A stretch of 64,000 nt of DNA from Nanobdellota archaeon (lineage in GTDB: Archaea > Nanobdellota > Nanobdellia > Woesearchaeales > WJKV01): positions 1 to 64,000 of the forward strand of contig JAGLWF010000007.1 in assembly GCA_023133595.1 (NCBI GenBank). Direction: 5' to 3'. How positions within the stretch are numbered: position 1 is the stretch's first letter; each line of letters starts with the position of its first letter. The position numbers were made by a program, and so were the translations under genes. Under the pieces are notes generated by a model. It was not told the origin of the DNA, did no database searches, and saw nothing but the letters and a program-made list of their open reading frames with translations. This document shows, piece after piece, positions 1-58,072 of this stretch.

Positions 1-3000
1 TATAGTATCCTCTGTCTCCTGGCAGGTCATCGATACCTTGGGGTAGACGATCTATATTCTCACTTCTTCTTTTAAGTTGTTCAATTCTATTTTTAAGTCT
101 TAATTCTGTTCTTAAAACTTCGTTGACCATTTTTTCCAATCCTTTAATTATATCTTTTCTACTTTCAACTATCTGGACTTCTCCCCCCTCTTCCAATGCT
201 TTCAATAGATTTCTATCTTTTTTAATATCGATTCTCCTGGCTTTGCCCACCGTCCTAACGCCATGAAATTTACCATCAATATAAACATCAACGAACTTCC
301 TAGTATATTCTTCGCCAAGGAAGATATTCCTGCCTTTCAATTCAAATGATATTACCCTTTTTCTACTTTCAACTATCTTAACTCTTCCATCCACTTTCAA
401 TGCATCCAATAAAGCTTTATCATTTACACTATCTAAATGGATTCTCCCATCTTTGCCCACCGTCTTAACACCATAAAGTTTATCATCAACACGAATTTCA
501 ACAGACTTGGAAGCGTATTCTTCGCCAATGAGGATTTTTGAAAGCGAGCTTTCCTTTTTAAATTCAATTTCTTTTCTTATGAGTTTAAGCAAATCATTTA
601 GAACAACTACATTTGTTGCAGACTTTTTCAATTTTGGACGCTTTACAATATACTCCACTATGTTTTCTAGAGATTTTTCCCTGTTTTCAGGTTTCTTGAA
701 CTTAGAGATTTCAGGTTCATTATCTTTAACAAAATCATAAAGAATATAATCCAGATCTTGCAATTCTTCAATCACCTTAGTTCCTTTTTTAAAGTTCTCA
801 AGTTCATCCGTTCCTTCTTCAAGTTGGGGATTTGCATGATCTACCATTTCTTTGAATTGAACTTTTATTAAAGCAATTGTCAGTTCTTCTAGGGATTTTG
901 TTAGAGCTTTCGATTTTCTTGCAGAACTATCCTTCAAATCATCTCTTGCTTCTTTTATATTTTCAATAGCAGAATCATAATCGTAAGCTTTTCCACTTGT
1001 CTGAATTATACTTTTTTCTATATTTTTAACTAGCTCATTTCTACTTTCATCCAGGAGTCTATTCGCTTCTTTTATCTTTCCTTCTTTAATGTATATTCTT
1101 ATATCTTCTATTAGTTTGACACAATCAGAACAAGTATCTTGTAAATTGTTTGTTTTTAGAAACTCGATTTCTGCTTTTTCTACTTCTTTTGTTTGAGCAA
1201 TCATTTCACCTAATAATTCTTCAATCGCAACAGCTCTTCTAACTTCTACAGGCTTTTCAAACACAGCTGGAACCGCCTCTTCAACTGGAAGTTTCTTTGG
1301 ATACAATAAAGTTCTTATTCCAGTAATTTTATTTACAAGTCTTCCTAATGCAAATGTCCCAGCCCATAGAGGCTCTAGTATTTCTCTTATTGATGGCCGT
1401 GTCCAAGCATTGTAAGCATCTATCTCGAAAGCAAGCTTATTCAGGTCCCTTAGATCAATATTAAAAGTATCTACGTTTATTTCAGCCAATCCAAAATCTA
1501 TGATATAAAAATTTCCTTCTTTATCTCTAAGTATATTATCTAAATGGATATCTTTATGATGTATCCTTCTTGGATGAATCTCTTCAATGACATAATCAAC
1601 AATATTCGGCCATTCCTGTTTTCTTACTGTTCCCCCAGCTTCAATATGATCTCTCAAACTAACAGTTCCTTCTAGGAATTCCGTTACTGAAAAATATTCT
1701 GCATCAAACATCTCATGATCTGCAGGAGCTTCCTCTAATTCCTTAAGAAGTCCTTCAAGATCAGTTATCTCTTCTGGTGATTTTCCTTCCTCTTTTCTGA
1801 AAAGCCCGACGAATCCAGGAACTTTATCCAAACCTGATAACTTTTGCAAGACAACTGCCTCCCTGACAAGAGCTTCTCTTGATAATTTCTTAGCAATATG
1901 TTCAGGAAGATTTTCCTTTTCAGGATCAATCCAATAATCAACCTTATGTTTCTTGACAAACAATCTTTCTCCATCAAATAAGGCAAGATAAGCATCTGTC
2001 TGCATCCCTTGTTTTGAGAATAGATTTTCCGGTGTTAATCGCCCCACAATATCTTTTAATCTTTCTTCAATTGCGATTGCTCTCCGGACTTCTGGCCCTT
2101 CAACACTCATCTGCCCTTTCTCTAATATTTTTTCTTTTAGAGATTTTAACCAGGCATTTTCCTTTCTGATGCGCGTATCTATATCATAAGTAAATGGAAA
2201 CTCCTCGGGTGTGTCTTTACTTATTGCAACACCAAAATCAATAAGCCATAATTTTCCATTTTCATCTACCAGAATATTCCTATTGTGTACATCTCCATGA
2301 GCATATCCAAGTTCATGCATTTTTTCAATATTTCGCACAAACCTGTTCCATTCTGATTCGCTTATTTTATTCCCCGCTTTAAGATGATCTTCAAGAGTCA
2401 CTCCTTTAATTTTTTCATAAACAAGATAAGTATTTTCTATTTTTGTTCTGTCAAAACTATAATCAATGAACCTCGGGAAGAATAATTCGATCTCTCCTAT
2501 TTCTGCTTTTTCACTCAGCTCACTTAACATTTTTGCTTCTTTTGCAATAGAAGGAAAACCTAATATATCAGTATAATAGTCTATAGCATGATGAGTTTCA
2601 ATATTTCTTGAGCGCATTTTCCGAAGCTCTTTTTCAGTTTTCGGTTTTTTTATAATTACCACAAATCCATTTTTCTTCCCCTCATAAATGTTGGCTTGTT
2701 GTCCTTTAGATACTAATTCCTCAATATATGCTGGAATTGACGGCAAAGGCCTAAAGAAATGGATTCCCCTATCTAAAAGCCTAGCAAACCAGCCTTCTTC
2801 CTCAATCACAACCGCCCTTCTCACTGTCGGTTCTTCAAGTACTGCAGGCTCTTCAGTATAATCAGATGCAAACTGCACCCCTTCAAGCAAGCTTATATCT
2901 CCCCTGAGCAGTTTTGGAAGTATATCTCTTTTGAAGGCATCTTCAGGAAGATTTTCCCTTATTGTCTTGAACATGGTTCTTCCATGCTTGTATGCCCAGA

Positions 3001-6000
3001 AGGCAGTTTCATAACCTGCTCTCTCAAGCCTGAGCTCTTCTGCTTCAATATCAAAGCCGCTGTCGCTCCTTTCACCTTCTTTTGTGAAAAGCTCTGCAAA
3101 GTATTTGCTCATATGATATTCCCAATCTTCTGCAAAACCTTCAGTGATTAGTTCTTCAGGGAAAATCCCTCTTTTTGTGGTTTTATGGATGAAGTGGCCG
3201 AATTCGTGCATAAATGTGGAAAGGATTCCTTGGACTGTCTTCTGCCTTTCTGCATTTATCCTGATTGTAGGGAAGAAGCCGAACCGGTCGTAGAATTCTG
3301 CACTAACAGGTATTTGATTTTTGTCAGTCCAATATTTGTCGCTGCTTATCTTTATCCTTAAGGATTTATAATCTACTTTTCCAATATAATTTAGCTGTGC
3401 ATTCTGCACAAGGTTGAGATATTCAATCAGATTGGTCTTCCTGTCCTTGTAAGGCCATATCTCAGAGTTGATTAACGTTGATATGAAGGCCTCTACTTTC
3501 CTGATTTCATCTCCTGTATGTCCAAACAATTCTCCTTCCCTTATTCTGTTGAAATAATCTTCTGCCTCTTCTTCCCTTAATCTTTGCTTTCTCCAATTTT
3601 CCTTGAAATCCTCCATAAACGTCTGCCTGATTGTTGCATCTTCAAATACTGCAGACATGATCATCTTTTGTATTGTTCTTCTTTGTTCGCTTGTAGGTTT
3701 GTCAGGATCTATCTTCCCTTCTGCAATGTATGCCTCTTTCAAGCTATTGACTTCTGACTGGACTATTTCCTTGTCAAAATTATTTTTCAAGCTTGCTTCA
3801 ACTGCATCAGAATAAGTTGATTTATCTATCAGCTCTCTCAGAAGAGGCCTTGTATCAAAGAATCTTCTTACTTTTATTCCCCGCTCTTTTATTTCAACTG
3901 TATCCTTTTCCAAGAAATCTTCAGGGATTATTCTTGCCGCTAATGCATAATCCACATTCTCACTTTTTGAAGGCAATGATTTGATGACCTCTTCAAGCAG
4001 TTCTTCATTTCTTGGCCATCTGATAAAACCGAAGAAAGTCCTTCTTTCGAATGTATTTCTCAGGAATTTCAAGCTTTCTTCAGTCTCTCCAATCCTCAAT
4101 AATGCATTTACAGTCCAGAAATTGTCAGCACTAAACGAATCTATCAATAAGCTCACTGCTGCATCCTTGTCTGCCTGGCTGAATTCTTTCCAGTTTGCCT
4201 GCGCTAAATTCTTGATATCTTCTGATGACAAAGCTTTCTTTTCAAGTATGCTCTGTGCTTCCTTATTTTCTATGAAAACACCTTCTTCAGGCATCTCTTC
4301 TTCTGGAACAGCTATTCCAAATTGTTTTGTTATCTTTTCTTTTATATCAGGATCTGCTCTTGTATAATATCCCTTGATTTTATCTATTATTTCTGCTCTT
4401 TCAGCAGGGTTCCTTTCTATTATCTTTGGGAGGATGCCTCCAATAATCTCATCTTCCAGTTTTTCTACCTCTCCTCTTTTCTGGCCGTGATTATCGATTA
4501 ATGTGAATAGTCTGTCTAGTGCAGGCAGCCCAATACTGATTATATTTTCTACAACTTCTGCATGTCTTTTCCACAGTCTTTGCTTTTCTCTATTAAGTTC
4601 TCTTCCATGAGCAAGGGACATAGGTTTTCTGCTCGCCTGCTTAAAATTGCTGTCATAACCAGCAAGGAAGTTTGTATTGACCTTCACTCTCAACCATGTC
4701 CAAACGCCTTTCAGACTGTCAGCAGCTCCTGCAGCAAGTATGTTAAGAATGAAGGGCTCTTTTTCTTCAACCTCTACAGGTTCTTCTTCAATCGCAACAG
4801 CTCTCTTCACTTCTACCGGCTTTTCGAACACAGCTGGAACTTCTTCTTCAACTGGAAGTTTTTCTGGAAATACTTCGGAAACAGGTTTAGCAACATACGC
4901 AGAAGTTACTACATATTTTAATCCAGGATGATATATCCTTTCTTCAATAGAAACTTTACTATCTGTAGCATAGGTATCCATGATATGGTGATCAAATAGA
5001 TATGTCTCTGTAAATTGTCTATTTGAAAGACCGCCAGCTTCAGTTGTTATCAAAAGCTCAAAATTATTTTCTTCTGCAAACTCATACACTTTTTCCATTA
5101 TCCTATCAATAAGTTCTTCATCTTTTTCAGTTGTTAATGAACGAACTAATCCCTCAGAAGGATCAAAACCAATCATGATCAATCGATTTCCTTGAAGATT
5201 AAGCAACAAAGCTCCTTCATGCTCTCCATTCCCAATCACTTTGACTATGATGAGATCTTCTCGCGCCTGATCATATGGATGGTCTCCAAAACATTCTCCA
5301 GAGAATTTTCCCTGCCAGAGATCAAGGAGAATCTTCTTCTTGAAAATCAATTCTATCTTCTTCGCTGCAGCAGCTTCTTTTGTCTCACTTTCAGTCATTT
5401 CTGTCTTTGCTCTGATAATTAGTTGCCATAAATCAGAAGCTTTCAGTTTTGGAACAAAATCCTCCATATCTAGAATCTCCATTGCATCTACCAGTGCAAT
5501 ATTGGCTTCTGGCAATTTATCAAAGAATTCATTCTCTTCTTGATTAACAAATTGCCTCAAGACAGATAGGTCAATCCTTTCAAACACTTTATACAATAAG
5601 ACATTTATTTCGTCTTTATTCAATTCCAGTTTTTTGAATACTTTTTTCTTTATATTGCCTTTTTGATCTTTTGCTCTCAATCCAGCTTTGAGGGAAATGC
5701 CATATTCTTGCTCGAGAGCATCCCATTCACCTTCTTCAATCATCTGAGCAATTTTTCTATCTATTTCTGGGGTTATCTCTATCTTCTTTGCCCTCAGATT
5801 CTTGCGTATGATCTTCTTTATAGTTTCAGCTTTCTCTTTTGTCCTCATTCCAGGGGAAAGTGAAATACCATATTCTTTTTCGATCTCTTCCCAGCTTTCC
5901 TCTTCTACCAATTCATCAATCCTTTTATCAATATCAGAGAATTTTTTCTTTATATCTTCAATATCAATTTTCATCTCAGCATCCAGTAGATCAGAAATTG

Positions 6001-9000
6001 AATTTCTTAATTCTTCTTCAAGTCCAGGCTCTAATTCCCTTTCAACTGTACGCGTTGTGAATTCAAATGATTTTATTGATTCCTTGAAATCCACTGTCTT
6101 TAGCCGTTCATCAATTGCCTTTAATGCCTTGACAGGTTGATCTACCAAATCTTTAAGATCTTCAAATTCTGGAACTTTGAATAGATTATCATAATTACGT
6201 TCATCAAATTCCTCATCTTTATACCTTAAAAGAGGAATATACATCTCATAGTCTATAATTGGCTCGCTGTAATATACTCGTGTTAAGAATTCTTCATAAT
6301 CTCTATCAGCAGTTTTAATAATTTTAGATATTGCCTGTTTTCTATGCTCTGGTTTCTTAATCTGATCTATTTTTTCGGCAGCAGCCTTTAATCTGCTAAG
6401 ATAAAGATCAAGTCTGTTTTCATTCATATCGTATTTAACTGTTGCAGCATATTCTAAGAAGATTTTGCTTGTAAGTTTATCTTCATTCTTTATAACATCC
6501 CTAAGGTATACACCTATTTCAGATCCAACAAGCCCAGTGAATATAATAAATGCCAGTGTATACTGCCTACCCTCAAAGTTATGAGCCTTCATTTTTTCAA
6601 TCAAAGTAGGGATAATAGCAAATATCTCAAGACCCTTCATACGTGCCAGCAAAACTGCTGCTGTTTCAGCTGGGGTCATATAACGATCTTCTTCAATATA
6701 CTCTAATAGAAAAGATATTGAATCTTCTTCTGCGATTGCAGCAAAAGCATTGATGGTCTCAATTAGATATTTATCACTTTCTTCTTGTGCAATTTCTTTA
6801 GGATCTTCCTCTTTTAATATATATTTTAAAACTGGGATTGCTTCTCTTGCATCAGACCCCATGTTTGTCAAAGCATGAAGAGCAATCAAACGTGTCTGAT
6901 AATCTTCAGATTTCAATCCTTCAAGAAGTATTGGCATTAATTTTGTTTTTTCATCTAGTATATATGAAAGCGCAGCTGCAACGGCAACTCTTATTGCAAG
7001 GTCCTCTTCTTTTTTCAAGATACTCTTTAGTTTAGATCGGAATTCTAAATGTTCCTCAGGAGTAAAAAATTGAGGATGACTTAATGGATTTCGTAACATC
7101 CTTGCTGCGAGAAGACGTATTTGATAATCTTCATCATCCTTAGCAACAACATCAATAGCCGCTTTTATTGCAGGAGAGACTTCAGGATCTCTAAGATGTG
7201 AAATTGGACTTATATATGAAATTAAAGTAGATATTCCATACAAACGAACACGTACGTCTTTATCATAAAGTGCTTGTATCATGATCAAAATCTTTCTATC
7301 CGAAACTCCTGCCCGCAATGAAAATGCCGCAATCCTTTCTGCAGGGGTATCGCCAGTCCTAGAAATTTCAAAAATAGTATCTAATATTTTAGATTGGATA
7401 CCTGATCCGCTTCGCTTATACAATTCGTGCGCTAACTTTATTGCATGCAAGCGCATTGGAAGATCCTTGTGCTCTAAAAGAGGAAGTAAAATAGGAAGAG
7501 GGGTTGCTCCAAAAGGTCCATTTATCATTGCTGTTATAAGAGCAATCTTCATCGGAATACTTAATTTATCTCTTCGACTATAAACTGCTTCAACATCTAC
7601 ATCAGGATATTTTACATGTATTGCATCAAGAGGAACAGCAACATCATATTTTCCAAGTTCGATTAATTCTGGAATCTCTTCGGACTTAAATCCAAGCGTA
7701 TCTTTCATCAGTTCAAGTGCTGCTACAATCTCTTTGGGATTGTAACCGTCCATCAAATATCTAGATATTATGTTTACAATCTGAGGTTCAGGAAATGTCG
7801 GACTACTAATAAGTCCAATCAGACTGCGCGGATCTTTGCTATATTTTTCAGCTTCTCCTGGAACATCTTCATATGGCCTGTCGCCTACTAATTTCAAGAA
7901 ATCTTCTTCTGTAAACTCTCTTCCTTCAATTAATTTTCCTTCTGGCCCAAGCATTTCTATCTTATAAGGTCTTACAATAGGCTTCTCTGAAGCCAAATAG
8001 ATCCCTCCTCGATATTTTATGAAAACTCTTACTTGTTCAGGACCCATTGCATCAACATATGTATGAAAATCAATTGCATCTGGCTGATATGCTAGAAGCT
8101 CGCGGATCACATCCTGTTCAGCAGAAAGAATCAGAGGAATATATTCTTCTTCTAGCCCTGATTCAACAAATATCGTGCCCAAATTTGAAACTTTATCAGA
8201 AATCCTAATCAGTGCATTATCTATGCTAAAAAGAGGTTTATCTACTACTTTTTTGCCTTCAGCATCTACTGCAAAAGCTTCAATAGTATAACGTGTGCGT
8301 TGTTTTTCACGTTCTCTAACGAGTTTTATTGTTTCAATACTAGAAGTAAATGTTATCTTCGCACCAACAGCTCCAAGTCTTCTTGCACGTTCTTCTAAAG
8401 TACTGCCCAATCGCTCTTGTAATTTTGTTGCAAAATATTGCGCAAAATTCTCTTGCAAAGGAAACCCTTCAAGCGGTTTCATCTCTATTGGTTTTCCTTC
8501 TTCATCAAGTTCTTCAATAGCAATAGCTCTTCGAACTTCTGGTTTGATTTCTCTTATTCTTTTTCCAAATCTCTCGTAAATTTCTTTGATCTCTGCTCTT
8601 AAAAGGTTATCTTCTGGCAAATACATTTGCGCAAGCCTATTAAGTATCTTAAAGTTAAATTTGTATCTCTCTACTAGTTTAGGACGTCTTCCTGCAAGTA
8701 TTCTTTCAATATTAGTTTTTTCATAGTCAGTTACTTTTCGAAGATAATCTTCTGCAGAGATGCCGATTTCCTGATTTGCAATCAGCATCAGATTTGAAAA
8801 CCGGAAGTGAGCTTCTTCTGATACTTCTGGATTTCTTGACATGAATGCTAGTCCCCCAGAATAATCTCCAAAGAAAGATCGAAGACTGTACCGATTCTCA
8901 TTAGCATCATAATCTTCAATGAATGCTTTCCAAGGCGAAACATCTATTCCTTGTTGTTCTAACATACGTAATTTCCTTCTAAAAATATAATCTATGATAT

Positions 9001-12000
9001 TTTGCTCCCCATAACCAAGAAAAGCTCCTATTGGGGTTCCTTCATATCCTAATTCATGATAGAGTTCTCCGAAACCCGAAATGTATTTTTTCAACCCTTC
9101 ATCAGTTTTTATCTTCTCCACTTCCTCTGGTTTAATTACATATGCCCCATCTGGAAGTTTTATCCTTGAAAAAGATAAGAAAGCTTCTCTTGTTTTATCA
9201 ATATTGTATATTATCAGATCATCTCCCCTTTCAATAAAATCAATTCCAAAGGTCTCTTTAATCTCAGAAAGAGCTTCCTCAGCATCTATAACTTTTTTAT
9301 CTTTGAGTTCCTCTAAAAATCCTGCTCTAATCCCAAGCAAGACACTAGCAATTTCAGGGTCAGCCACAATAGCTTTTGCTTTTTCATCTGGCCAGTCTGC
9401 TAAGAAATCATTCAATTGTATTGCCTTTTGTTTCACTTCTTCAATCACAACAGCTCTCCGAACTCTTGTAAGTTTTTCAAACACAGCAGGCAGTTCTTCA
9501 ACAGCAAGTTTATCCTGAAAATCCCTGATTAATGCCTGCAATCTCAGAATTTCTTTGTTTGTATTATATGCAGTATCATAAATATTATCCAGCTGCTGTT
9601 TCAAGACGCGGATCTTATTATCAATCTCCTCCACGCCTGGAATTTTTGCATCTTTTGCCCTGTCAATAAATGCCTTGATGCTTGCAATATTATTTTCACG
9701 TCTTCCAAGACCTTTATCTTGACCCAAGAATTCATATGCTTCATTCACAGCTTTGAATGCAGCTTCTGCCTCTTTCTGGACTTCTTCTGGATATGCTCGC
9801 CACTTATCAGGATGATAATCCATTGCTTTTGTTCTATACGCTTTTTTCAATGCTGTCTTGTCCCAAACAGGTCCCAAGCCAAGAATATATTCTGCAGCTT
9901 CTTTTGCATCCCTCAGATACCACATCCCAGATTTGATTCCTGCAAATGATGCCCGGGCCAATTCCTTCTCAAAATTCAACAATGACTGCACTTTATCATC
10001 AAGAATATCAGCAAGAAGAACATCTTTCGAAGCTTCTAGTTCTGCTATTTCATTCTTTCTTGTGTGTATGGCTATCTCTAAATCAACAAGCTCTTTTTGA
10101 TTAGCCTCAATTATACCCATATATCTCTTTATTTTCTTCCAGATTGTTTCTGGAGATTCTACAACCAACTCTTCTGTAAATGCGGTTTCCAGCTTCTCGT
10201 TCAGATCACCTATCACTTGATCAGTATATCCACTGGATATACGTACTCTTCTTTGAAACGGTACTCCAACCTGTTCTCTTTCGAAAATATTATTCAAGAT
10301 CGCTTCAGCATAATTTGGATCCAGGGAAGTTCCATAGTTCAGCCAGAACCATTGGAAAGCTTCGACTATCTCAGGAGTAATCTCTGAAAATTCATTGCTC
10401 GATGCCCGAAGATTTGAATATGCTTCTTCTATGAATCTAGCTTTCAGCTCAGGCCGACCTATTTCAGCAGCTATCTTATATTTAGTAACATATGAAAAGA
10501 CAACAAACATTTTTCTCTGTCGGTCTGCAATAGTTCCTTCACCAAGAGAACGCACAAAAGTTTCTGCTTGTCCTTTGGAAATCATTGGTCTTTGTTTCCC
10601 TCCTGGCACAGAAACTCCACTCAGCATCTTCATGGACAAGTCAGACAGTACATCTCTTGTATCTTTTTTGTATATCTCAATCAGCTTCAGAATATCAACT
10701 TTTAATCTGAATTGCTGATGATCAACAAGATCTAATTCTTTGTTCAAAGCAGTCTCAACACGCCGAGCACTAGATAATCTAGAGCCATATGTTTTCTGGA
10801 ACAATATGAAATCTTTAACAGTTTCATCACCAAATGCTCTATACTCTATTGAAGGGAATCTTAACAATGCTTCTGCTATGTCAAAATCTTTACGTGCAAT
10901 AGCAGCCATGACTGAAATGAATTTCTTCTGCCTATCACCCTGTAAATTGTCCTCCAGATTTGTCAAAAAGAATCCTGCATTATCATCGCTCATGCGAAGC
11001 GCTATTGCTCTCTTAACAAGTTCTGGCTTCTCGAACACAGCAGGAACAACTTCCTCGTATAATGGTAATTTCTCAGGCTCGACAAATTCTGCAATCTCTT
11101 CATAGAATGGACCATAATCAGTCCATCTCCAGAAGTCCATCAAAGCATCTACAGCAGGTTCTCGTTCATCCTTATCAAGCCTTCTTGCAAGTTTTATAAG
11201 AGCTAAAACTACAGCTTCGTGATGTTCATCATAAACAACATTATCAAGGATATCAATTAATGGCTCAGTAGCTGATTCGATCGCAGATGCAGGAAGATAA
11301 GCTGCTAATTTTCCAAGTATGTTAGCAATTTGAGTATAAACATCTTCATTGTCAGGATCTTTCAATATCTTGGTTAAAACTTCAGGATCTACCCGTCCCA
11401 TTTCTTCTAACCCCTGGCGTGCATAGCGGACATCATTGTAATCATCAGATCTCAAACCATTAATTAATTTTTCAACTCTTGTCTCTGGAATGAATCTTCT
11501 TATTAATTCATTAAATATACCACTTGAAACACCAAACAAGCCTAGTGTCAGGACCATACCACCAGCAGACATTACAGTCATAATTTCTGGAGATATTGCG
11601 ATTGCTCTCCTGACAGATGGAATTTCTTCAATAGCAACAGCTCTTCGGACAGCAGGTGCTTCTGCTGGTCTCAATCCTTTGATAACAATTTCTTGTGTGC
11701 CTATTTTAACTATATCGCCTTCATGCAGTTCAGCAAGCCTGATTTTTTTGCTGTTGACAAAAGTGCCCCATTGGCTTATATCTTCCAAGTACCATTTGCC
11801 ATTCTCAAAATACATCTGCGCATGTCTTCTTGATGCGCGCAGATTCTCTGCAGACACGCGGATGTCACTAGTGGTCAATCTTCCGATGCTGATAGGATTC
11901 TCCCGGGTCCTGGAAATATCCAGTGAGAACTCTGTTCCTTCCAGCACAACTTTTTCTATCAATGGTCGGATAGGGGCTTCTTCTATTGGAGGAAGTTCAG

Positions 12001-15000: not shown

Positions 15001-18000
15001 ATACAAAATCATAACCTTTCCGGATCACACCTTCTCGTCTTAATTTTACTTCTTCTAAAGCCAGATCAATCTCTGATAATAATCCAGTGTCAGTCACTTC
15101 CTCTCTGATTTCCTGAAGCGAATCCTGAGCAAACGAACTGACGTCAGAGAAAGGATCTTCCATTGATTTTATCAATGCAGGAACTGCTTTTGTGCTCTTT
15201 GTAAACCCAAGCATTTCTATTGCCATCCGTCGAACTTCGTAATTTTTATGTTCAAATGCCTGAATAAGCAGATTTTCATTTGAAAGTATATCCTCTACAA
15301 TCCTTTTTTCTTCAAAAGATCTTGCCAAGGTAGTAAGTTCTCCTATTTTTTCAAGATCAGCATAAAGATCAGATGTAGTTTCCCAGATTTTAAATGGAGG
15401 ATATTTAACTTCTGGTTCTGCAACCAGCTTAGTCGGCAATGGCTCTTCAAGTTCTTCTGTTGTGACTTCTGGACCCACAATTTCTGGTTCAGCTGGCTTG
15501 CTTATTCTCTTTGCTACAGATTTCGCAATCCTGTGAGCACCAGGAGCAAACATGAAAGCCAGGATACTGCCAGTAGTGTACCACAAGATGCTTCTATACG
15601 CAATATCAGCAACAGGATATGCCCACCCGAATTCTTTAGTATTCTTTTTGAGATCAATGAATGGAATGATCCAGCTTGCTGCCCGTCTGAGTCGTGATGG
15701 TTTTTCTTCGACAACTGCTTCAGGTGTCGGCTTTGCTTTTTCAGCTTGTAATCGTCTCTCTCCAAGTGAAGTAAAAATTGTCTCTGCAAACGGAGCATAG
15801 AAGAATGCAGGGATAAAGAAGAATCCAAATGCAGCTCTATATAATACATTAGGGACAAGATATCTCAGACCATATTTTTTAGTATTCTTGATCATATCTG
15901 CTGGAGGGAATATCCAGCTCAGAATCTTTCTTCCAAGTGAAGGTTCTTCTTCTACAATTGGTTCTTTTCTTTCAGCTTGTAATCGTCTCTCTCCAAATGA
16001 AGTAAAAATTGTCTCTGCAAACGGAGCATAAAAGAATGCAGGGATAAAGAAGAATCCAAATGCAGCTCTATATAATACATTAGGGACAAGATATCTCCAG
16101 CCATACTTCTGGAAGTTCTTTCGCATTTTTATCGGCGGGAATAACCAGTTTGCAAGTCTTCTGCCCAACGAAGGTTTTTCCTCGACAACTGGTGCAACTG
16201 TCAGCGCTGGAATCTGAACAGGCAATTCAACAGGTCGTCCAAGCAAAGCTTCTCTTAATGCAATCAGATTCTCTTTGTCAAGTTCTGTCAGCACATTATT
16301 GTCAATATCATATGCCAATACTCTTTCAATATCTCCTGCCAACTGTGTCCTAAATTTTACATCCTTCTCTTTGACTTCTTCTGGAGTAAATCCTTGGTCT
16401 ACAAGCTCCTGTCTTACACCTGCTATTTCATTCACCATGGTTCTAGATAATTCATAGAAGTTTCTTAGACGGTCAGGCAATGTCAATATTAATTTTATTC
16501 TGGCAACAATATCTTCTGGCTGTTCGAACAATTGCTGTTCAAGAATCTCATCAAGAGTAACACCATATTCTTGTTCTGCATCCCATCGCAGATTAATGAT
16601 ATCAAGTTCACGTAGAGTCAGAGCAGGTTCTGGCTCCATGACACTATCTCTAATTCCATAAGATAACCAAGAAAGATCTCTAGGCATCAGGCCGCGAGGA
16701 ACTTTTTCTTCGATAACAACTGCTCTCTTTGCAGCAACTTCTGCAGCTTTGGAAAGAACTTCAGGATCAACAACACTTCTTTCATCTACAAAAGAACGTT
16801 CATATCTTTTATATTTTGAATCGGTTACTGTTGTCGGATTTATTCTAATTTTATCTAAGATATCCCAATATCTGTATGGGATCCGCTCTAGTAAAATATT
16901 TTCAGCAATTGGTGTTAAATCTTCTCTCAAGACAAGCTTGCGGAACTCTGTTGGAGATTCATGATATCCCTGCGCAAACAAGAATTCTGAAGAATGCATT
17001 ATCTCTGTAATTTCCCATTCTTCCTTGATGCTTTTCTCTGCTGCCAATTCAAATCCAAACATCCTGGAAACTGTTTCAGGATACATCATTGCAAGATCTT
17101 CATAATCAATCCCTAACAAAGTACTTATCATATCTCTGTGATGATATATCGTACTCTCAGAAGAATATCCAAAGAATTCTTCTGGTTCTGTTGTGAACAA
17201 AATATGCGGAACATTATCATAGTCTATGAAAACAACTGCTTTTGCTCCTCTTAATCCATAACCAAGATTAAAACTGAAGATATCCAAGAAATTTTCAGCT
17301 GTTACCTGATTGAAGGCAACCTCTTTTAATTTCTTATGATCTATTGGAAGGATCGGTCCCATATAGTTTCTAGAAGAGATTTCTCTATAGACTTCTAATG
17401 GCACTTCTTCTTTTATGTTAGTCTTGATTACATTTTCTAAATCCTTTGGCTTTATTTCTGATTCTGGAATTCCCCAGATCAAATCTTCAAGTCTTGGGAA
17501 AGCCCGTATTCCAGTAAGAGCATAAACCTGATCAGCAAGTATGTTTCTTCTTTTTGCTAGTTCTTCTGGAACCTCTTCTTTGGTAAGTTCTTCTGTTGAA
17601 CGCTCTCTTAATCCGTCAAAAATCAAAGAAGTATAGCCTTTCCATTCTCTAAGATCTGGATGTGAATTCAATGGATGGGAAATACCATAGTATTCATTAC
17701 CTTCTGAATCAATAGTAAGACGCCAAGCAACCCAATCATCTCGAACAGGATCAAACAACCAACCACCATCAATCGCTTCTCCTAAATCTGCAACCACAGC
17801 ATCAATAGCAACAAGTTTCTGCACTTCCTCAACATCAAACTGAGGAACTTTCTTGACAGGAACTTTCCGACCATGTATGATTTCTTCTTCAAGAACAACT
17901 GCACGCTTGACTTTTGGTTCGAACACAGCTGGAACAGCCTCAGCTGTCACTGCTTTCAGAAGAGATACACCAATCAACATGTTCATCTCTTCAAGATCAT

Positions 18001-36000: not shown

Positions 36001-39000
36001 AAACTCTACCAAGACCCATAATTCCAGCTCTTGCAGCTCCAGAAGCAAATCCAGCCATACCACCAGATGCAACTATCGCAGCCAGTTCAAGAAGAGTTCC
36101 AATGTTCAGATAATCATCCAGCCAATGGCCCTCATAATGTTTAAGAGACTTGAACGAATATTTACCAATATCAAATGATTTGAACCTGGCAACATCAAAC
36201 TCACCCCTGTTATCAATAAGTCCGAATGAACCTAATCTTGTGTAAGCTGCAACATTAGTGGTTCTTACTCTCTCAACAGATCCTTTATCAACATCATCAT
36301 AAAATTGTCCTTTCAATCCAGCGATCATACGTTGTATGTGCGCAATCTGTGCTTGTTTCCTATATTCTGGCATATCAGAGGCTGCAATCTCTGAAATCTG
36401 TTCTTCTAGTGTAGCAACTCTTGCTTCAAGATCCCCTTCTAACTTTTCAATCTCTTTTTCGCGCGCATCCCTTATCGCTTTGACAGCTTCAACCAGGTCC
36501 TCAATCTTTCCTCTTTCTGCTTTGAACATCTTATCATATCTTGCATATCCTTCACCAACCAAAGAACCATACACTTTACCCATACGGAAGACACCAGTGC
36601 TATACAAGAAATCCTTCAATCCATCAAATGTTCTCAAATCAATTTCAATATGTTTGTTCCTCTCGTATCTGGATATCGCAATTTTTCCGTTCAGTGAAGC
36701 AATAATATCTTCAAGACGAGATGTTACCAAACTAGCTTTTTGTCTTCCATCAAGACTAGGATCAATACCCCTATTAGGATTTCTACCGACCTTGTCATTC
36801 AATTCCTTCCATTTAGCAACATAATATTCTAGTCCTGTTTCAGCTACCCGGTAATTCCTATAAGTCAATGGATTATGGCCAAGCACAGAACTATATTCCT
36901 TATGATCTTCTATAATTCCCTCAACACGTTTCTTTTCCCAGTCATATCGCTTTAATTCTTCCCTATCTAATTCACCTAAACATTCTTGCCTACCTTTTTC
37001 TCCTTTTCCAGTATGCAGGCAATGCTCCACACCAACAGCCCGCCGTATTGCTTTTGCCTGCTCTGCTAATATCTGATGTTGGATTGCGCGGTGAGGAAGC
37101 TGGAATCTCTGGTTCTCGTGCATTGTCCGCTCAAACTCAATAACCTTTTGTCCATATTCTTTATACAGTTCTGCAGCATAATTCGCATCTATTTTTGCAA
37201 GATATTCATGATAAGCTTTGAGTTTCCCCTGCTCTCTAGCCATTGCCTTCTTTAATTCCCAGATTTGATTTCGTATTTCATAATCTTCTCTCTTAGGATC
37301 TTTCTTTTCAATATTTCCAATCTTACGGCCAAGTTCCCAGATCTTATCCCTGGCATTATTTCCAGATTGCTCCATGTACATCTTTGTATTTTCAGAAACT
37401 TCGCCTGGAGGATCACCATACATCACTCCTGCTTCATCGCGATCAAGAGAACCTTCTAAATTTCCTTTTTCTTCCAGAAGTTTTTCTATTCTAGCTTGTA
37501 TCTTCTGGTTAAGGAGAATATCTTCTTCATGTTCAGGATTTTCATGAGGATCCATCTCCGCCATCATAACATCAAGATCCATCTCTTCTTTCCGGATGAA
37601 ATAATCAAACCGTTCATCAATCTGTTCTTTTGTTGAAGATCTGAATTTGTCCAGCATACTGTCAGTATCCTCAATTGCTACTACTGCTTCTGGAGAAAGC
37701 TCTTCGAACTCTTTCTCTCTCTTGCCCCACATTAGTTCGTCCAGTTCGTTTGCTATTTGGTTTGCATAATCAAGAGCAAATTTGCTTTCATCAATAGCTT
37801 CTGTGTTTGCAAGATCTGCTAATGCCCTTGAAAGATTTTTTCTGTCTTCTGCTGTGAAGGATCCAGGTTTTGTTTTTAGTTTGTTAAGCAAAGCAACAAT
37901 TGTCTGTCCGCTCTTTCTCAGGTTGCCTTCTCTATATTCCTCATATTTTGATTCCTTCAGGATCTCTTTTATCGCATCTCTCCAGGCTTTATTGTTTGAG
38001 GAATCATCTGTTCTTCCTTCTCTATATTTATCAGCTTTCTTGGCAAGATAGCTCAAAGCCCTGCTTTCTTCTTCAAATGCAATTTCATCATTTATCGTCT
38101 CTCTTGCCAGTGCTTTTTGCTGATGATACAACCGTTCTTCCATCTCTCTGATCTGGCGTCTCTGCTCTTTAATAACATTAGAATCATCCTTGAATCCCAA
38201 TCCTTTCTGTTCTTCTAGCTCTCGTTTAAGCCTTCCGATTGCCAGAAGGGTTCGCTCGATCTTAGTTTTCATACCTCGATATTTTGCAAGATTCATCTCG
38301 TGAGAGTAAGCTATTGAAGCATAATCATCACCTTGTCTCTTGAGCACTGTGTTTGTATCAGCAATCCGATCCAGAATCAATTTTTCTGCTTCTTGTAATT
38401 TCTTCCTGTCTGCATCAGTCAATCTATGGTCGTATCTTATTTGCGCTAGTATCTGAGCATATTTTTTCTTAAGCTCTACAGTTCGTCCTCTATGGAACCG
38501 CTGATATCTTTCTCCTGTCTTTGGATCCCGCACTACAAAAGTATCTTTTCCTCTTTCATCCTTCTTTCCAAGCCCGCCATAGACTTGTTCTTCAATATCT
38601 TTGACAATAGCAGCACGTTTCTCTTCTTCTGCACGCTTCCTTGCTTCTTCCAATACTTTGTCTATTTCTTTCTGTGTTTTTAGAAACTGGTCAATATCAT
38701 CCTTTGAACTCTTTGTATCCAGTTCAAGATCTTTCTTGAAAGTTTCAAGCTTCTGCTCGAAAACTTCTAATGTGATCTCTCCAGCCATGAATTTTGCTTT
38801 AAGATCCTGAACATAAACAATCTCTTGCTGTCTCATATCAGCTGCAAGAATTCTTTTCCCCCCTTCACCAAAGAATTCATCAAGCTTAGCTTGATTTATT
38901 CTCTTTAAAATATCCTGAAGACCAGTTCCATCTGCATTAGCCAACTGGCCTTTTAATCCGTCAATATCAGCTTTTATCTTGTCATACGCTCTGGCCTTGC

Positions 39001-42000
39001 CGTACTCTTTCTTTAGCTTGCTGTCAAGATTAGCTATCTGTTCTTCTAATCGTCTTAATTCTTGTTCTGCTTTTTCCACCTCTTCATGAGAAGTGCCTGC
39101 AGCTTCAAATTCGTCCTGGCATGCTCCTTCTGATTTTTTTGCTACACAATCCCTATAAGCTTTCATATCTTTCAAGAACTCTTCTTGTCTGCTTTTTATA
39201 CTTTCAGGATCCTCAGGATCTTCTAATTGTTTCTTCCGATCTTTCATCCCTTCTAACTTATCTTTCTCAACCATCCGGTCTGCTTCTTCTGCTCTTGCCC
39301 CTTCTCTTCGAGCTTCAAGTTCTTTTTCTAGCTCTTCAATCTGGGCTTCAACCTCTTTGATCCTTTCTTGCAGATCAGCTTCTGATTCAAAGTCAGCGTT
39401 TTCAAGAAGACGTTGTGCATCCTCACTCGAAATTCCAGCGTTTTCAAGTTCTGTTATTGCATTTTGGATCACAGTATTTTTCATCTCTGCAAGCTCTTTC
39501 TCTAGCTGAGCCATCTGCCTGGCATTTGCCTCAAATCTCTGGCCAATTTCTCCAAGAGATGTCCTTACATCATTTTGATCATAGCCTATAGGCTCTATTT
39601 TATATCCATCGGCTAATTTACGTTTTGTTATTTTAACTTGGATGTTTGTTCTTTTTCCATCTTTATCAAGCAAGTAATATTTTCCGTCATGCTTTGTGAC
39701 CCATTCATTATCTTTTAATTTTCCTTTATCATCAAATATACCATATGCTGGTTTTTGCCCTGTTTCGAATGTAGCAGCAATACGGGCAAGAATATAATGT
39801 TGTTCAGCCAGTTTCTGGCTTTCCTCTCCTAATGCTCTTCGCTGCTCGGACTTTTCTTCGTAGCCTGGTATCTCTCTAAAGGAATCTGGATTGGATAATT
39901 TGACTATAAGACGTTGCGCAGCTTTTGCTTTCAATTCTTCTTTCAATCTGGCTGCTTCTTCTGGAGATGCATCAGCAAGTCTCTTTTTTAGTCCTTCCAT
40001 CTCAGCTGTAAGTTTATCTTCCAAGATCTTTTGTTTTGCAAAGAACTCGTCCTGGACAAATCCACGATATTGTTCGGTCTCATCATTGCTCATCTGTCCG
40101 TAAACTGCTCCAGTATGGATATCTTTGATCTCGCCTGTCCGATAATCTATGAAGACAGAACGTTCATTGCCATCAATATCAGTGAATGTTGTGAAGCCTC
40201 CGACCTCCACATTCTCTCCGATATCATTCAGGAACAATCTATTGATCAATGCAGGATCAAATTTCTTTGGATCAAAGTCCTCGTCACTTAATAGATTAAG
40301 AAGGCTATCTATCTTCTCCAATCTCATCTTATCTCCAACTGTTAACTCCTTCTTCTGATCTAATAATGCTTTTTCTGCTGTCAATTCTTCTTTCTTTTTC
40401 TGAACATCAAATGTAACAACATGGGCGAACATTTCTTTTATCTCTCCTGTTTCAGGATCAATTTCAAAGTCACGCACAGTGCGCAGTCCTTCTGCCTTCT
40501 TTTTGTTGGCCTCATCTAATTCCTTTACAGCCCTTTCTCTTTCTTTTTCATAATATTTTTTCTCGCCCTGCAGTCTTTTGATATCTGCTTGTTCTTCTGC
40601 AGAGAATCCTTCAAGCTTCTTCTTTTGTTCTTCTTCTGATAATTTTTCGAATTCTTCCAGATTCATTTCTTGTTTTTTCAGAAGCTTTGCAAGTTTGGCA
40701 GATGCCTCATCTATCTTTTCCTTTGCCCTTTTTTCGCTGCTTTTAAGACCTTCGATCCTCAGATTGATAAGTTTCTTGTCAATGTCAGACATCCGTAATG
40801 TTGTTCTCAAACCATCCAACTGCAACTGCCTTTGCATTACATTTTTCTTCAGTTCGTAGAATTCACGATTCTTTTGTTTTATACCAACCATCAATTCTAC
40901 TGCCCGATCTCTTTTCGGTTTAAGCTCACTCATCTTATCTGCAAATGCTTTCCTTGCATCATCCAACTCTTTTTGTTTAACCTGATATTGAGCATACTCT
41001 GGCTTCATACTGGCCAATTCTTTTTCTAGATCTTTGACTTTATCAGAAGCTTCCTTCATCCCGCTCTCAAACTCTGCAAGCAGTTTCTTATATTCATCAT
41101 ATTCTTTGCTTTTCAGTGCAGCTCTTGCATCATCAAGCTTCTTATTTCGGCCAACCATATCTTTTTCTAGTTCAGTAATTTTTTGCTGCAAAGCTTGCAG
41201 ATGACGAGTGACCACACCTTCTTCTGGATCATAAAGGAACTTGTTTTTCTCTGATGCTGCCTTTGCAATGTCCTCGGCATTTGCCATATACAAACTATTT
41301 AACTCTGGAGATTTAGTCCTCAAGAAACTCGACAATGGCTCTCTTTCAGTGATCTTCCATTCACCGTCTTCATACTTCAAAGCAAAGCCCAAATGTTTTG
41401 TATTACCTTGGATTAAATTCAACATTCCCGTTGTTACCAAGTTTCCATCTTTGTCTCTTGGAGCAACATCTTTCATGAATTTTGTTAAATCTTCTCCAGT
41501 GCTTTTGATTTTCTCTTGCACTGCTTCTCTATGTTCTTCATCGCTTGGATCAAAATCCTTACCATAAATCTGCTCTCCGACAGCCTTTTCCAATTCAGCC
41601 TTATGCTCGCTCTGGTATCTATCTAATGGAACAGCATGTTTTTCTTTATCTCTATCAGACATAGTTTTATCTAATGCTATCTCTTCAGGAATTACCATCC
41701 ATTTTCCATTCTTTGCTATTAATTTGTTATTTCCTAAAGTCTTTTGCAAGTTATCTACAGAACCTTGAATTTTACCGAATCTTTCCTGGAAGTCTTTCAA
41801 TTTACCTTTCATCCCAGGCAATATCTCATTTACCATCGTATCCAATACTGCTAATTTTGAACCTGGTGTTCTCACCTCCGTAGACCATTTGAGTACTGCT
41901 TTCTTTTCTTCTTCGGTCTTTTGATATTCTTTATTTTTCGGTATTTTTTGATATTCTTCTTGCAATCTTTTCTTCTTTATTTCTATTTTTTCTAAATCTT

Positions 42001-45000
42001 TTTTGTTATTTTCTAAACCTTTTTCCAGTTTTTCTTTCTCTTCTTCTAACTCAACTTCTTTTTCTGCATCATACATCCCTTCTTTACGCTCCTCAATAAG
42101 TTCCTTTTGCTCTTTCTCTATTTCTACTAATCTTTTCTTTTTCTTTTCTGAATCCCCTTCAAGATTTTCTTTCTTTTCATCTAACCCAAGTCTATCATCG
42201 AGATTCTTTCTTCGCTCTTCCGCCAGCTTCTCATCTTTCTCTAATCCTCTTTCTAATGCATCTGCTTTATCATCTCCTTCTCTCCGTCTATATTCTGCAA
42301 TCTTATCTTTCTTTAATTGCTCTAGTTCTTTCCGAAGTTCTGATTCGATCTCTTTCACTAATTCATCAACTTCTTTTACATCTCCAAGACTGGTGAATTC
42401 TCCAAGTTTCTGAAACATCCTTCCAATAATTTGAATATCTCCTCCAAATCCTTCTGGAGGATCTTTCAGAATCATTTCGAACAATTGCTTCTTCACATCC
42501 TGTGCAGCTTCTAACAACCCGCTCAACAGGTCAAGCCTGATTCTTTCTGGACCAGATAAACTTCCAATACCTTTTTTCTTTCTATAACCTTTATTTCTTC
42601 CAAGGATTATGTCTCCTGTGTTTGTCTTGTCTGCTTTCTTCGCACCATAACCTCCAGCAATATCTTGCTGGCCTTTCTGTGCATTCGCAGCTCTTTCTGC
42701 TGGTGGCAGTGGCGGGAATACTTTATCCCACGGAGGCAATGACATAAGGGTTCTTTTTGGAATAAATCCTACATATACACCAAACATTGTTATTTCTAAC
42801 TTTTCCCATTCAACTTCCAGTGCTCCCCGGATCATCCTTGCCTGCACAGCAGGATCTGCTGGCTTCTCAGGGGTTGGTCTTGGTTTTGGTTTTGGTTTTC
42901 CGCCAGGTCTTGTGGATCCTCCTGTTGTCGGTGTGACAGTGCCTGTTGGATCAGATGAGAGAGGAGGTGTGAAAGTTGGTTGCTTCTTAGGTCCAGGCAT
43001 GTCTATTTCTTCAGGCAATGAATCGCATTTATCCAAATCCACTGTCCAATAGAGTGGATCAGATTCAGGATATTTTTCTGCGCACGTCTGGTCGCATTCT
43101 TCTGTTTTAGGATCTGGTTTGTTCCCAGGATCATAACCTGTCAGGGCCCAGTTAGGCACAAAACAATGATCGTCAATTGGCTCGTTCTTAAACTCAAACT
43201 CTATCTTTCCTTTTGCTTTGCCTGTCCCTCCATTTCTTGAATATTCTTCAACTTCTGGAGAGTCCTCATTCTTCTTGAATGTCCAGCATTCATATTCATC
43301 TTTTTTGTTATAATCCTCTACTTTCTTATCCAGCCAGCCATCAAATACACTGAAAACATTATTACTATTAATATAACTCAAGACAACATTAGAATAATGA
43401 CAATCAGCATAATGTATCATGGCTGCAAGATATGCCATGTATGCATAAGCCCACATTACATCTGATTTCAGGCTCGCAAGATTTTCACTACTGTATTGAT
43501 CATCAAGCGCATCTGCATCTGAACCGATTTGTTCTACAATGTCACTGAAATCCTTATAATCATCTGCAAATGTAGAATACCCAGTGCTCATATCATTATA
43601 ATCTTCATTTGCCACACCTTTTATTTCCTTTTTACATTTACCAACTAATTGTCCGACTTGGCCAGCCCATCCCAGATAATTTGCTTTGAACTTATCTAAC
43701 TTAGCTTTATCTTTATTGATCTCTTCTTTTAATTTACCAACATCTGCTCCTCCTTTGCACGACTGGCTTGCTTCTTTAAAATATTTAGCTTGTTTATCAG
43801 AAGTTTTCTTGATAAAGTCAGGAATATCACTCATAATTTCTTTATAATACCCCCCACTAAAACTCTGTGTACTAATTAATTTAGTCCAATATTTTGCTGA
43901 TTCTGGTTCTGGTTCTGTTCCAGTAGCATCTTTGTATAATGCCTGGGCAATTGCCCATGCTTTTCCGTATTGTTTTAACAACAATGTATCTTTGAAATGT
44001 TCTGCATTCGTCTTGACAGTCTGTGCATTTTCCTGATTTATGTTCAGCGCGCTCTGGTCTGCTCTCCCTCCATCACCTTCGCCAGCTCCAGCTGCTCCAC
44101 CAGATGTTCCTTCTGAAATACACCACTTTCCATCATCTGGATCTTTTGGAATTACTAGTGCAGCTCTTCCAGTTATATCTGCGATTGCGCTTCCAGTGAT
44201 AACACCTAAATTCTGTTCACGAGGATGTTTTGGTTTCTTGAACTTGACTGGTTCTGGGAGTGCCAGCAGACTGTTCTCATCGATTTCAGGGATCCTTTCT
44301 ATGCTTCTGCCAAGGATTTTTTTAGTAAATCCAGTTATTCCGCCAGTTGACTGAGCAGAGTGAGCATAACTTTTGCCAGTGGTTTGTATCAATCCACCTA
44401 ACTTCCCTTTCATTGGAAGCACGCCGTTTGCGCATCCAGCTAGATCACTGCCTAGTGCTTTCTGTGCATTTGACAATTCTTCAGAGCCACCACAGCCTCC
44501 ACCAAGCCTTTCAATCATTTCTGATTCTTCTAATTCAGTTATTGTCTTCCGATATCGCTGCTCTTTTGATTGTGCACCAGTAATATCAACAGTAGCTGCT
44601 GGAGCTAGCATCATCTTTCCATAGCCACTACCGCTTGGTTTTGGAGTAATTTCACCAGCCCTGTATCCTGCTTTTCCTCCACCAATTTGTTTCATCGCAC
44701 CTGTCATGCCTTCTGCACAGCCAGCTTGTTCACCAGGAGGTACTGGTGGAGGTGGATACTGGATGAATGCTCTTGCATCACCAATTCCTTCTTTTGGATC
44801 GAACCGGAACTGTACTCTTTGCACGCTTCCTTCTACACCATCTGCTCCGCGTCTGTACAAGAACCACATTCCTTCGTTGACAAAGGTAGGTTCTTCTGGT
44901 TCTGCCTGTTCTTCTGGAGATTTCACTACTCCGGCAATAGCGCTTGCTTCATACTTCACAGGCGCTCCTCCTCCTTCGACCACAATCTGTTTCAGGACTC

Positions 45001-48000: not shown

Positions 48001-51000
48001 TCTCAATCTCGCCAGGGATACGTTCTCCGTCTCCGCCAGTCACAACCAATGTATCTTCTGTGATTGTTTCTGGATCAACCTGGCTGCTGAACACAATCTG
48101 TATCTCAATACTCGGAGGCACTGTCATGCCAGGCATTGGACTGGAATAAGCAACCTGCAGTCCAGGACCAGAACCTGCAACAAAAGAACTTCCGAATGCT
48201 TTTGCCGGGTCAAGAGCAAGCGCAGGATTCTCTGGTTTTCTGTTTTGGTTTAGCATGTTCGCGTCTTGGTCTGTGAACGAAGTAGGGACATAGACAAAGT
48301 ACCGCATGAACGGAGTCAGCTGTTTTCTAGGTTTGAACTCAAACAAATTATTGTTTCCTTTTACCAGGAATGTTCCTGCGATCGGAACTCTCTTATTGTC
48401 CATTATTTTTATTTTATTGACTTTGCTTGTGTCCATTGGCTTGCTGAAAGCAAGGAATACATTTGCAGTTGTCGGAACATCCTCTTGCTCATCATTAGGG
48501 AAGACATCTGTTACAAATGGAGTCATCACTTCTTGTGCAGTTGCAGGCTTGTTGGTTATCTCAATATGATACTTGCTCATATCCAAAGGCATATCTCCGG
48601 CTGGATTGATCTGCGGAATGAATATCGTGACAAATTCACCGCGGTCAAGGATTCTCTTTTTCTCTTGTTCGCTCAGGCCTGTTCCTGGTTCTTCTTCAGG
48701 AGTTTCTTCTCTGCCTTCCTGAGGGATGAACGGAACATCAGTGATTTGCGCGCCTGTAGGGATATCAAATGGTCCAGTATATTGTGGTGCAGGAGTTGGA
48801 GTCTCTCCAGTTTCTCTGGTCTCTCCAATTTTTCCAGTTTTTTCAGCTCTGTCAGTTTCCTCTTCTTTTTCCTCGGCAGCTGCAGCTGATTCTTCAGTAG
48901 AGCCCATATAATTACCAATCGCTCCGATCTTTGGTTCTGGTCCAGGAAGATCGTCCTCACTATCTGCAGGACCGCATTCTGGTGAATCATCAAATACACA
49001 CTGACAACCAATACATTTCACACCGATTGGAGAATCTTTACATTGTTCTGCAGCCAGTTTATCTCTTTCTGGATCTGAAAGTGGTTCTCGCTGGAGTTCG
49101 CCTGGTGCACCTGGTACTTTTCCAAGTCCTGGTGCTCCTGGAGTTGGAGCTGGTGGGGGGGTTGGTACTTCTCCTGGTATTGGTGCAGGTGTTGGAACTG
49201 GTGTTGGTGCAGGTGGTGTGTATCCTGGCTGGCAATGTGTTTCATACATACAATCAGGATCACTGCAATCAATTGCGCCATCACCATCATCATCTATATT
49301 ATTATCACAGATCTCGCTTGGCCCATACGCTGATGGAGGAGGTTGCACTCCATGACAGAATCCTTGCGCAGCGCAATCCGGATCCTCACAGTCAACATAA
49401 CCGTCACCATCATCATCCTGAACATTACTGCAGCGAGAAAATGTATTCTCTGCTGCTCTTCCAGTAATGAATCCAAAGATTGCAGCGCCTGCTACCTTAA
49501 AACTTTGAATAAATTGTTGCTGTTCTTCTTGTTGTTGTCCTTGTTGCTGTTGTTCTATGCCACGTCTTCCAGCTGTCCTTTCCCGCTGTATCCTTTCTAA
49601 ATATTCTTCTTCTGTTTCCTGAGCTTGCTCTGCTCTTTGCTGTCGGGCAGCTTCTCTCTCAGCCAGAATCTCTTCTGGTGTTTTTCCAACATCACACTGC
49701 TCTCCTTCATCTATTCTGAAATTTCCACACTCTGCTCCAGCATCTTCATCTGTGATTCCCGCTTCCTCAGGCATATCTTTTGGTTCTTTGTATGCTTTTG
49801 GTTCTGGAAGGCCTGGCTTGTATTCAAACTCGCCAGATGTCAAACATAATGCTGTCCAGCATTCAGGACATTCTCCTTTTATACATTTACTCATATCCAC
49901 ACACTTTGTTCTGCTCGCAGCTGTCAAAAATGGGGAGACTTCACATTCTCCCCGACTTTTAATCTCTGGTGTTCCGACTATCTTTCCATCCATGCCAACT
50001 TCAGCACAACAACATTCCAGACAATATTTATCTTCAACGCATTTTCCAGTCGCCACTTGCGTCAACCCGCCGCCAGCCTCGCCAACACATGCTTTCTTTT
50101 CTTTCCACGAGAATGTAAATTTTTTCGGACCATCTGGATTCGCAGGAGACAACTGGCTTGAAGACGGAGGTTCCTGGCAACAGCAAGTATCTGCCCCAGC
50201 ACATGGACATGTAGTTTCCCCATCTTCACATTCCTCTTCTGGGGCGCTAACAGTAACAGTATAATCTGCTGGTGGAGGATCTTCTTCACATTCACCTACT
50301 TTCTCATCAATATCCTTAGAATCAGCTCCTACTTTCCGAGGTGGTTTTTCTGTTGTAGTGGAAGTATATGTACAGATAGGGTATTTATCAATAAGAATAT
50401 AATATTCAGTTGTCTTTTCTATAATAGTCCAGGTTGCTGTCACAGGCGGGCCGCAGTCTATTTCCACAGTACATTCTTTTTCTTCTTTATCAGGTTTCTT
50501 AGGACATGAAATTTTAGGACAATCACACTCCACATCTGTTTTCGGACATTCGTCAACACCACAATCAAAGGTTTGTGTCCATGTATCAGGTCTTTCACCA
50601 TCTTTTTCTTTACATTGTTCGTCCATATCTCCTTCGCCGCTTACTTCTATATCTTCTACTTCTGTCGTTATCTTGTTAGTCATATCACATGGTTCAAAAG
50701 GAGCAGTTGAGTATGTTTTCGTTGTCGTAGTTGTAACTTTACATTTTCCCTTTGCTTTATTAGTACATGCGTCTTCGATTTCAGGACCTTCACAATCTGT
50801 GGTGCTTGATGATGTAGGTCCAGGACAAGGTTTTCTCTCTTCTGTTGTTACAGGCACAACTGTAGTACCACGCGGTCTTGGATCAGGTTCAGTAGTTATT
50901 CCAGAATAATCTGAACTTACATCAAATGTTACAGAAATTCCTACAGAAACATCTGAATCAACATCTACAAAAATCTTGCCATCATCATAATAAGCAACTA

Positions 51001-55765: not shown

Positions 55766-55792
55766 GTTCACATTCATTAATGAGGTGAGAGA

Positions 55793-56593: not shown

Positions 56594-56595
56594 AA

Positions 56596-56614
56596 TTTTT
56601 ATTTTTTCTTTTTT
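56596..56614 (+). terminator. U-rich terminator of the 54677-56593 operon
   Basis: A T-rich run (TTTTTATTTTTTCTTTTTT) starts two bases after the stop of the 266-residue gene. It fits archaeal U-tract termination and separates the operon from the convergent HEPN remnant. Confidence 0.65.
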
Positions 56615-56618
56615 AGAA

Positions 56619-57605: not shown

Positions 57606-57697
57606 CGGTTTTTTTGCTTTAGAAAGTTCACACCGACAAAAAGTATCTTTGTCCAGTATATAATAAAAAGGTATTTGAATGAATACAAAAGCTATGT

Positions 57698-58071: not shown

Positions 58072-58072
58072 T

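Follow-up and report, generated by a model that had tools for sequence, protein, structure and literature searches.

Giant archaeal proteins have been described in Nanohaloarchaeota, in which SVXNc_0300 (9,409 aa) is reported as the largest protein of cultivated archaea and, with BNXNv_0298, represents the SPEARE-type giants (PMC10266531). Giant open reading frames (ORFs) of >20 kb in small genomes, with a proposed role in cell-cell interaction, are known from Omnitrophota (39,678 aa in V. archaeovorus, and others; PMC10066038), and in collections of metagenome-assembled genomes (MAGs), the proteins >40,000 aa were found to come from Omnitrophota and Oscillospiraceae (PMC13104272). Asgard archaea carry aloposon twin giants of 3,000-6,000 aa, which sit in tandem within mobile elements located at tRNA genes, and other giant genes (PMC8813620). 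Here, a giant gene was analyzed in a 64,000-nt stretch of DNA ("the window", bases 1-64,000 of the 73,130-bp contig C36, JAGLWF010000007.1) from a Nanobdellota archaeon of the order Woesearchaeales (assembly GCA_023133595.1; 1.37 Mb, 38 contigs, 91.7% complete). Its predicted product of 17,511 aa nearly doubles the largest reported cultivated-archaeal protein (9,409 aa, PMC10266531). We read it, with evenly divided confidence and from sequence alone, as a Sec-exported Woesearchaeota multi-module giant of ~2 MDa that would be displayed on the surface and deliver a payload to a partner cell.

The window giant shares with the SPEARE-type giants a DPANN origin, a Sec signal peptide, Ig-like domains, a huge ectodomain, a proposed host-interaction role, and one huge gene in a small genome. 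It differs in its SF2 ATPase, its long series of phospho-signaling modules, its linkers, and its Cys-free chain, and the VirB4/TraG-type ATPase found near the C-terminus of the SPEARE-type giants had no Pfam match in its scanned segments. The Omnitrophota giants are bacterial and are described as sparse in annotated domains, with several transmembrane helices in many cases (PMC10066038), whereas the window giant is archaeal and has many recognizable enzyme modules and few hydrophobic segments. Its module set is absent from the nanohaloarchaeal and Omnitrophota giants as those papers describe them (PMC10266531, PMC10066038). The aloposon giants are set apart by their description, as the window has a single giant and no tRNA genes were found in it.

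The giant gene and its archaeal genome

The initial annotation had proposed a frame of at least 17,312 codons, kept in one phase from position 51937 to the window edge behind a good start site. A base-by-base scan of the window bore this out: the minus strand from 51937 to 2 holds 17,312 codons with no in-frame stop and no N, and the remaining five frames across the joined gene have 468 to 1,802 stops apiece. The ATG at 51937 follows a strong Shine-Dalgarno sequence ending 4 nt before it and opens a signal peptide (MKKTTWLRLIAFVSIFLMVSTTFVYA).

2..51937, on to C10:749, minus strand: giant ORF, residues 1-17,312 of 17,511 (frame scan, contig overlap)
51942..51947, minus strand: Shine-Dalgarno GGAGGT, 4 nt ahead of the ATG (sequence)

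Window position 1 is the edge of C36, and the end of the frame had been left beyond it. The ends of all contigs in the genome were compared to find the continuation, and the C36 edge was found to share exactly 150 bp with the beginning of contig C10, a match unique to C10 in a search of the rest of the genome. The same 150-bp overlap occurs between several other contig pairs of this genome, as expected of neighboring contigs. The joined frame reaches a stop at C10:749, giving 17,511 aa, 1.99 MDa, and an isoelectric point of 5.1, of which the last 199 residues hinge on this single join. GC content at third codon positions and codon usage are even along the gene and similar to the rest of the genome, so no chimeric join is indicated. 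One intact, uninterrupted gene is thereby confirmed to encode the giant, its end being subject to one contig join. Apparent open frames in the short contigs C28-C32 were masked N and were discarded.

The genome had also been called archaeal-looking, and its genes agree. C10 encodes a TATA-binding protein (TBP; archaeal/eukaryotic), an aIF5B-type IF2, Trm1, and RNA 3'-terminal phosphate cyclase, and C36 encodes a radical SAM enzyme that forms wyosine; genes for TBP, Trm1, and wyosine synthesis are features of archaea and eukaryotes. Omnitrophota, named in the initial annotation as the best-described source of giants, are a valid precedent though not the sole one, as archaeal giants had already been described (PMC10266531).

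A colinear homologue was found in a Woesearchaeota sister genome of the same family ('Candidatus Woesearchaeota archaeon isolate Bin_486', G001), the only relative in the genome-collection scan. Four of its contigs, each an open frame over its full length, match successive parts of the giant at about 30% identity (mostly 25-40%).

G001 C18: matches giant aa 361-1119
G001 C63: matches giant aa 3657-5517
G001 C92: matches giant aa 5569-7123 and 10945-11069
G001 C27: matches giant aa 12704-17019

This homologue makes a single assembly artefact unlikely. The best parts of the N-terminal Cys-rich region are 48-56% identical to the sister. The pyruvate phosphate dikinase (PPDK) region is absent from the sister fragments, so payload modules vary between relatives. 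Clear homologues of the ATPase region occur in only 2 of the 353 genomes of the order, a third match being marginal, and a scan of viral contigs gave no relative.

Modules and cysteines along the chain

The N-terminal part carries the following features.

51857..51937, minus strand: Sec signal peptide, aa 1-27 (sequence, hydropathy)
48968..51283, minus strand: Cys-rich disulfide-type N-terminal region, aa 219-990 (sequence; conserved in sister)
48248..48520, minus strand: Big_5 Ig-like domain, aa 1140-1230, the better of two stretches (Pfam)
36338..42940, minus strand: charged helical/coiled-coil region, approx. aa 3000-5200 (composition)
35498..36130, minus strand: hydrophobic helical region, approx. 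aa 5270-5480, a candidate membrane-insertion segment (kept in sister)

The Cys-rich region includes NCBIfam acid_disulf_rpt (NF033662, acidic double-disulfide repeats) at aa 834-861 and in a second copy. The helices of approx. aa 3000-5200 are predicted at low confidence only. Residues 5270-5480 are moderately hydrophobic without clear transmembrane helices by hydropathy, which over the whole giant gives only the signal peptide and four marginal segments.

The C-terminal 11,500 residues consist mainly of a string of modules.

33326..33892, minus strand: SF2/ResIII-DEAD ATPase core, aa 6016-6204, QAVTAFGKT and DEAH (Pfam)
29864..29878, minus strand: HEASH zinc-protease-like motif, aa 7354-7358 (motif only)
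28631..29041, minus strand: calcineurin-like metallophosphoesterase, aa 7633-7769, GDRHG and GNHE (Pfam)
25010..26590, minus strand: PPDK module, aa 8450-8976, ATP-grasp and phosphohistidine domain, GGRSSHA (Pfam, PDB search)
21908..22030, minus strand: P-loop of nucleoside-kinase-like module 1, aa 9970-10010 (motif, sub-threshold match)
20708..20809, minus strand: P-loop of module 2, aa 10377-10410 (motif)
18731..19105, minus strand: HD-like module, aa 10945-11069, LVHDFGYFE (motif only, without Pfam match; common to sister)
15095..15271, minus strand: HEAT_2 repeats, aa 12223-12281 (Pfam)
11699..11893, minus strand: FHA phosphopeptide-binding domain, aa 13349-13413 (Pfam; common to sister)
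9716..9886, minus strand: DnaJ domain with HPD, aa 14018-14074 (Pfam)
6788..7033, minus strand: HEAT_2 solenoid, aa 14969-15050 (Pfam)
3194..3208, minus strand: HEFGH zinc-protease-like motif, aa 16244-16248 (motif; Peptidase_M78 below cut-off)
2213..2698, minus strand: protein kinase/Kdo-RIO-like domain 1, aa 16414-16575, HGDVHNRN and DFG (Pfam)
1397..1876, minus strand: protein kinase-like domain 2, aa 16688-16847, HKDIHLDN and DFG (Pfam)
1226..29224, minus strand: linker zone with 15 VRRAVAIEE-type copies, some preceded by PAVFEKP (repeat search)

Catalytic motifs are complete in the kinases, DnaJ, the metallophosphoesterase, and the PPDK module. The last resembles PPDK (PDB 5jvj, 1kbl) in its ATP-grasp and phosphohistidine domains (E = 7e-61) and keeps the catalytic His, but it is fused into the giant, has lost all Cys, and has no detected PEP/pyruvate-binding C-terminal barrel (5jvj homology stops at the His domain, with no PEP-utilizers_C match). 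A PPDK tree had long branches and gave no resolution between one capture and several. Neither the ATPase profile nor P-loop module 1 had a match when searched against PDB sequences. The linkers run from aa 7572 onward, sit at many module borders, and start at 29224, 29134, 19276, 19225, 17911, 13789, 11650, 11614, 11017, 9463, 8536, 4810, 2824, 2089, and 1243; they were not found in the sister or the other giants examined.

No Cys occurs across aa 4,987-15,548 (10,562 residues). Coiled coils are often poor in Cys, so the folded modules were tested apart, and eleven module stretches totaling 4,409 aa had none (binomial p ~1e-23 at the genome rate). The stretch aligned among PPDKs holds 3-7 Cys in nine cytosolic enzymes of the order, whereas it holds none in this giant or in the giant of genome G005, from another family. 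Where internal Cys do occur, they are nearly all paired: 83 of 86 in twelve giant ORFs from eight genomes have another Cys within 15 residues (4.6 expected by chance; maximum of 18 in 2,000 simulations), compared with 8 of 43 in a control of low-Cys cytosolic-like proteins of the window's genome. Pairing extends past the hydrophobic region, with a CxxC at aa 16936/16939 of the giant and vicinal CC pairs in the sister. Even-numbered Cys content has been used as a predictor of oxidative folding (PMC7678975). The absence and pairing of Cys along the chain indicate that the whole chain, enzyme modules included, is probably exported.

Five Cys-poor giant or large ORFs end in a lone Cys at -1 to -3, with the tails AAEQCAA, NIVCS, KAKVC, AKLACRT, and GQCTG (G024:C21 1802; G005:C14 31788; G005:C16 15912; the G124:C12 giant, L121/L122; L125 1-6669), a possible signal for C-terminal anchoring or cross-linking. 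The window's giant lacks it.

Proposed delivery to a partner cell and alternative readings

In the proposed mechanism, the disulfide-rich and Ig-like N-terminal part would hold the giant on the cell surface and contact the partner cell, the coiled coil would form a stalk, and the conserved hydrophobic region ahead of the ATPase would insert into a membrane. The Cys-purged C-terminal modules would be an ATP-using phospho-signaling payload active in the partner's cytosol, with the repeated linkers between its units being flexible joints or possibly sites of cleavage. ATP is cytosolic, and since the exported modules need it, the simplest reading is that the payload acts inside a partner cell. Long exported multi-effector chains are known from MARTX-type toxins, in which, as in this giant, effector-like enzyme modules follow a putative membrane-entry region. 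RTX repeats and the self-cleaving cysteine protease domain that lies between the effectors of those toxins had no Pfam match in the window giant, and the payload within the Cys-free aa 4,987-15,548 cannot contain a Cys protease.

Several points weigh against delivery. The disulfide-forming enzyme VKOR was not found in this 91.7%-complete genome, and part of the modules may be inactive binding scaffolds. Another point is the narrow spread of the homologous ATPase core, in 2 of 353 genomes. AlphaFold models from two-sequence alignments had a mean predicted local distance difference test score (pLDDT) of 39 for the ATPase core and 40 for the hydrophobic region, were uninterpretable, and were left unused.

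The rival that fares best, which we hold to be rather improbable, is an exported surface fiber or coat, with the giant staying outside and its modules being repurposed folds or acting on extracellular nucleotides. The signal peptide, the Ig-like and disulfide-repeat domains, and the Cys pairing all suit permanent exposure, the neighboring genes too look like exported surface proteins, and descriptions of large archaeal proteins often place them at the surface (PMC10266531, PMC11573180). However, intact kinase, PPDK, DnaJ, and phosphoesterase motifs are unexpected in relics, and ATP-dependent enzymes would be without substrate outside the cell.

A second rival is a transmembrane receptor or scaffold with its N-terminal part outside, the hydrophobic region spanning the membrane, and the enzymes in the producer's own cytosol, which supplies ATP and a DnaK partner. 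This topology, for which the conserved aa 5270-5480 region speaks and which has a precedent in that proposed for nanohaloarchaeal giants with a cytosolic ATPase (PMC10266531), is nonetheless unlikely: Cys are purged or paired beyond the hydrophobic region too, cytosolic PPDKs of the order retain Cys, and hydropathy gives no clear transmembrane helices there. An argument that the J-domain is obliged to use host DnaK was dropped, as the genome encodes its own DnaK.

Less probable again is a polyprotein cut at the linkers into ordinary separate enzymes for the producer's own use. Linkers do lie at many domain borders, and the MAG-protein survey cites a suggestion that giants may be processed (PMC13104272), but the signal peptide and Cys avoidance speak against cytosolic use, and the linkers are missing from the sister and other giants examined. 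An assembly or binning artefact that joined unrelated genes, or a frame open by chance, could be imagined for a 38-contig metagenome assembly whose last 199 codons rest on the 150-bp overlap, but with the stop-free frame inside one contig, the even codon usage, the independent colinear homologue, and giants in other genomes it is very improbable, and for the part inside the window close to refuted.

Giants elsewhere in the order and neighboring genes

An order-wide survey located FHA domains in seven genomes, within ORFs between 3,327 and 12,045 aa long, an undercount, as the survey overlooked the window giant's own FHA. In G024, only a 10-N scaffold gap lies between the 12,045-aa ORF and one of 7.5 kaa, which has a signal peptide and Kazal domains; provided that the scaffold is correct, the two form a single giant of ~19.5 kaa, with kinase, FHA, HD, metallophosphoesterase, and SpoIIE phosphatase modules. 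No length record among archaeal proteins is therefore claimed for the window giant, the G024 giant probably being longer. The 6,471-aa giant of G005 carries PPDK and PP2C, and that of G124 combines a signal peptide with 5,135 consecutive residues free of Cys. Giants of other families carry a related vocabulary of FHA, kinase, PP2C/SpoIIE, metallophosphoesterase, HD, and PPDK. In an order-wide search for protein kinases, ordinary kinases dominated the matches.

Kazal-type protease inhibitor domains, at least four of them, lie in the N-terminal part of the G024 giant (G024:C21 approx. 55800-57053; L096:15800-17053). In G038:C25 4150-32104 (L115/L116), a 3,055-aa frame with a signal peptide overlaps the next frame of 6,282 aa, perhaps a single giant broken by a frameshift, or else two neighboring genes. 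The window's own genome has a second very long frame (C7 3-19646, 6,548 codons) that runs off the contig edge, with a hydrophobic segment at the N-terminus and normal Cys content.

Directly upstream of the window's giant gene, at 52041-52310, lies a dispersed MITE- or REP-like element. It is built of two modules of ~98 bp, bears short terminal inverted repeats, is found with its modules single or paired, and has about 43 matches in the genome. A cluster of more exported or surface-like proteins, most without a Pfam family, adjoins the giant at 52961-63999, with an HTH-nucleotidyltransferase gene at 57045-57569. A MoxR AAA ATPase and an adjacent VWA protein are encoded at C36:70818-73062 (L005:6818-9062).

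The gapped 19.5-kaa giant in another family suggests that the window giant is not a one-off, and the similarly built giants of the order point to a little-studied class of giant proteins for cell-cell interaction. The Cys pattern offers a simple sequence test to spot exported giants, and recognizable enzymes with an apparent export signature provide defined modules open to expression and assay. The giant also raises how a cell with a 1.37-Mb genome translates a 2-MDa chain, moves it through Sec, and folds it. The finding bears on how DPANN archaea act on their hosts. It is a tentative idea, which we think doubtful though a little less so than the surface fiber, that many Woesearchaeota deliver a whole phospho-signaling circuit (kinase, PP2C/SpoIIE phosphatase, FHA reader, phosphoesterase, and PPDK on one chain) into a partner cell by means of modular Cys-purged exported giants; if true, this would be a strategy not described for archaea.
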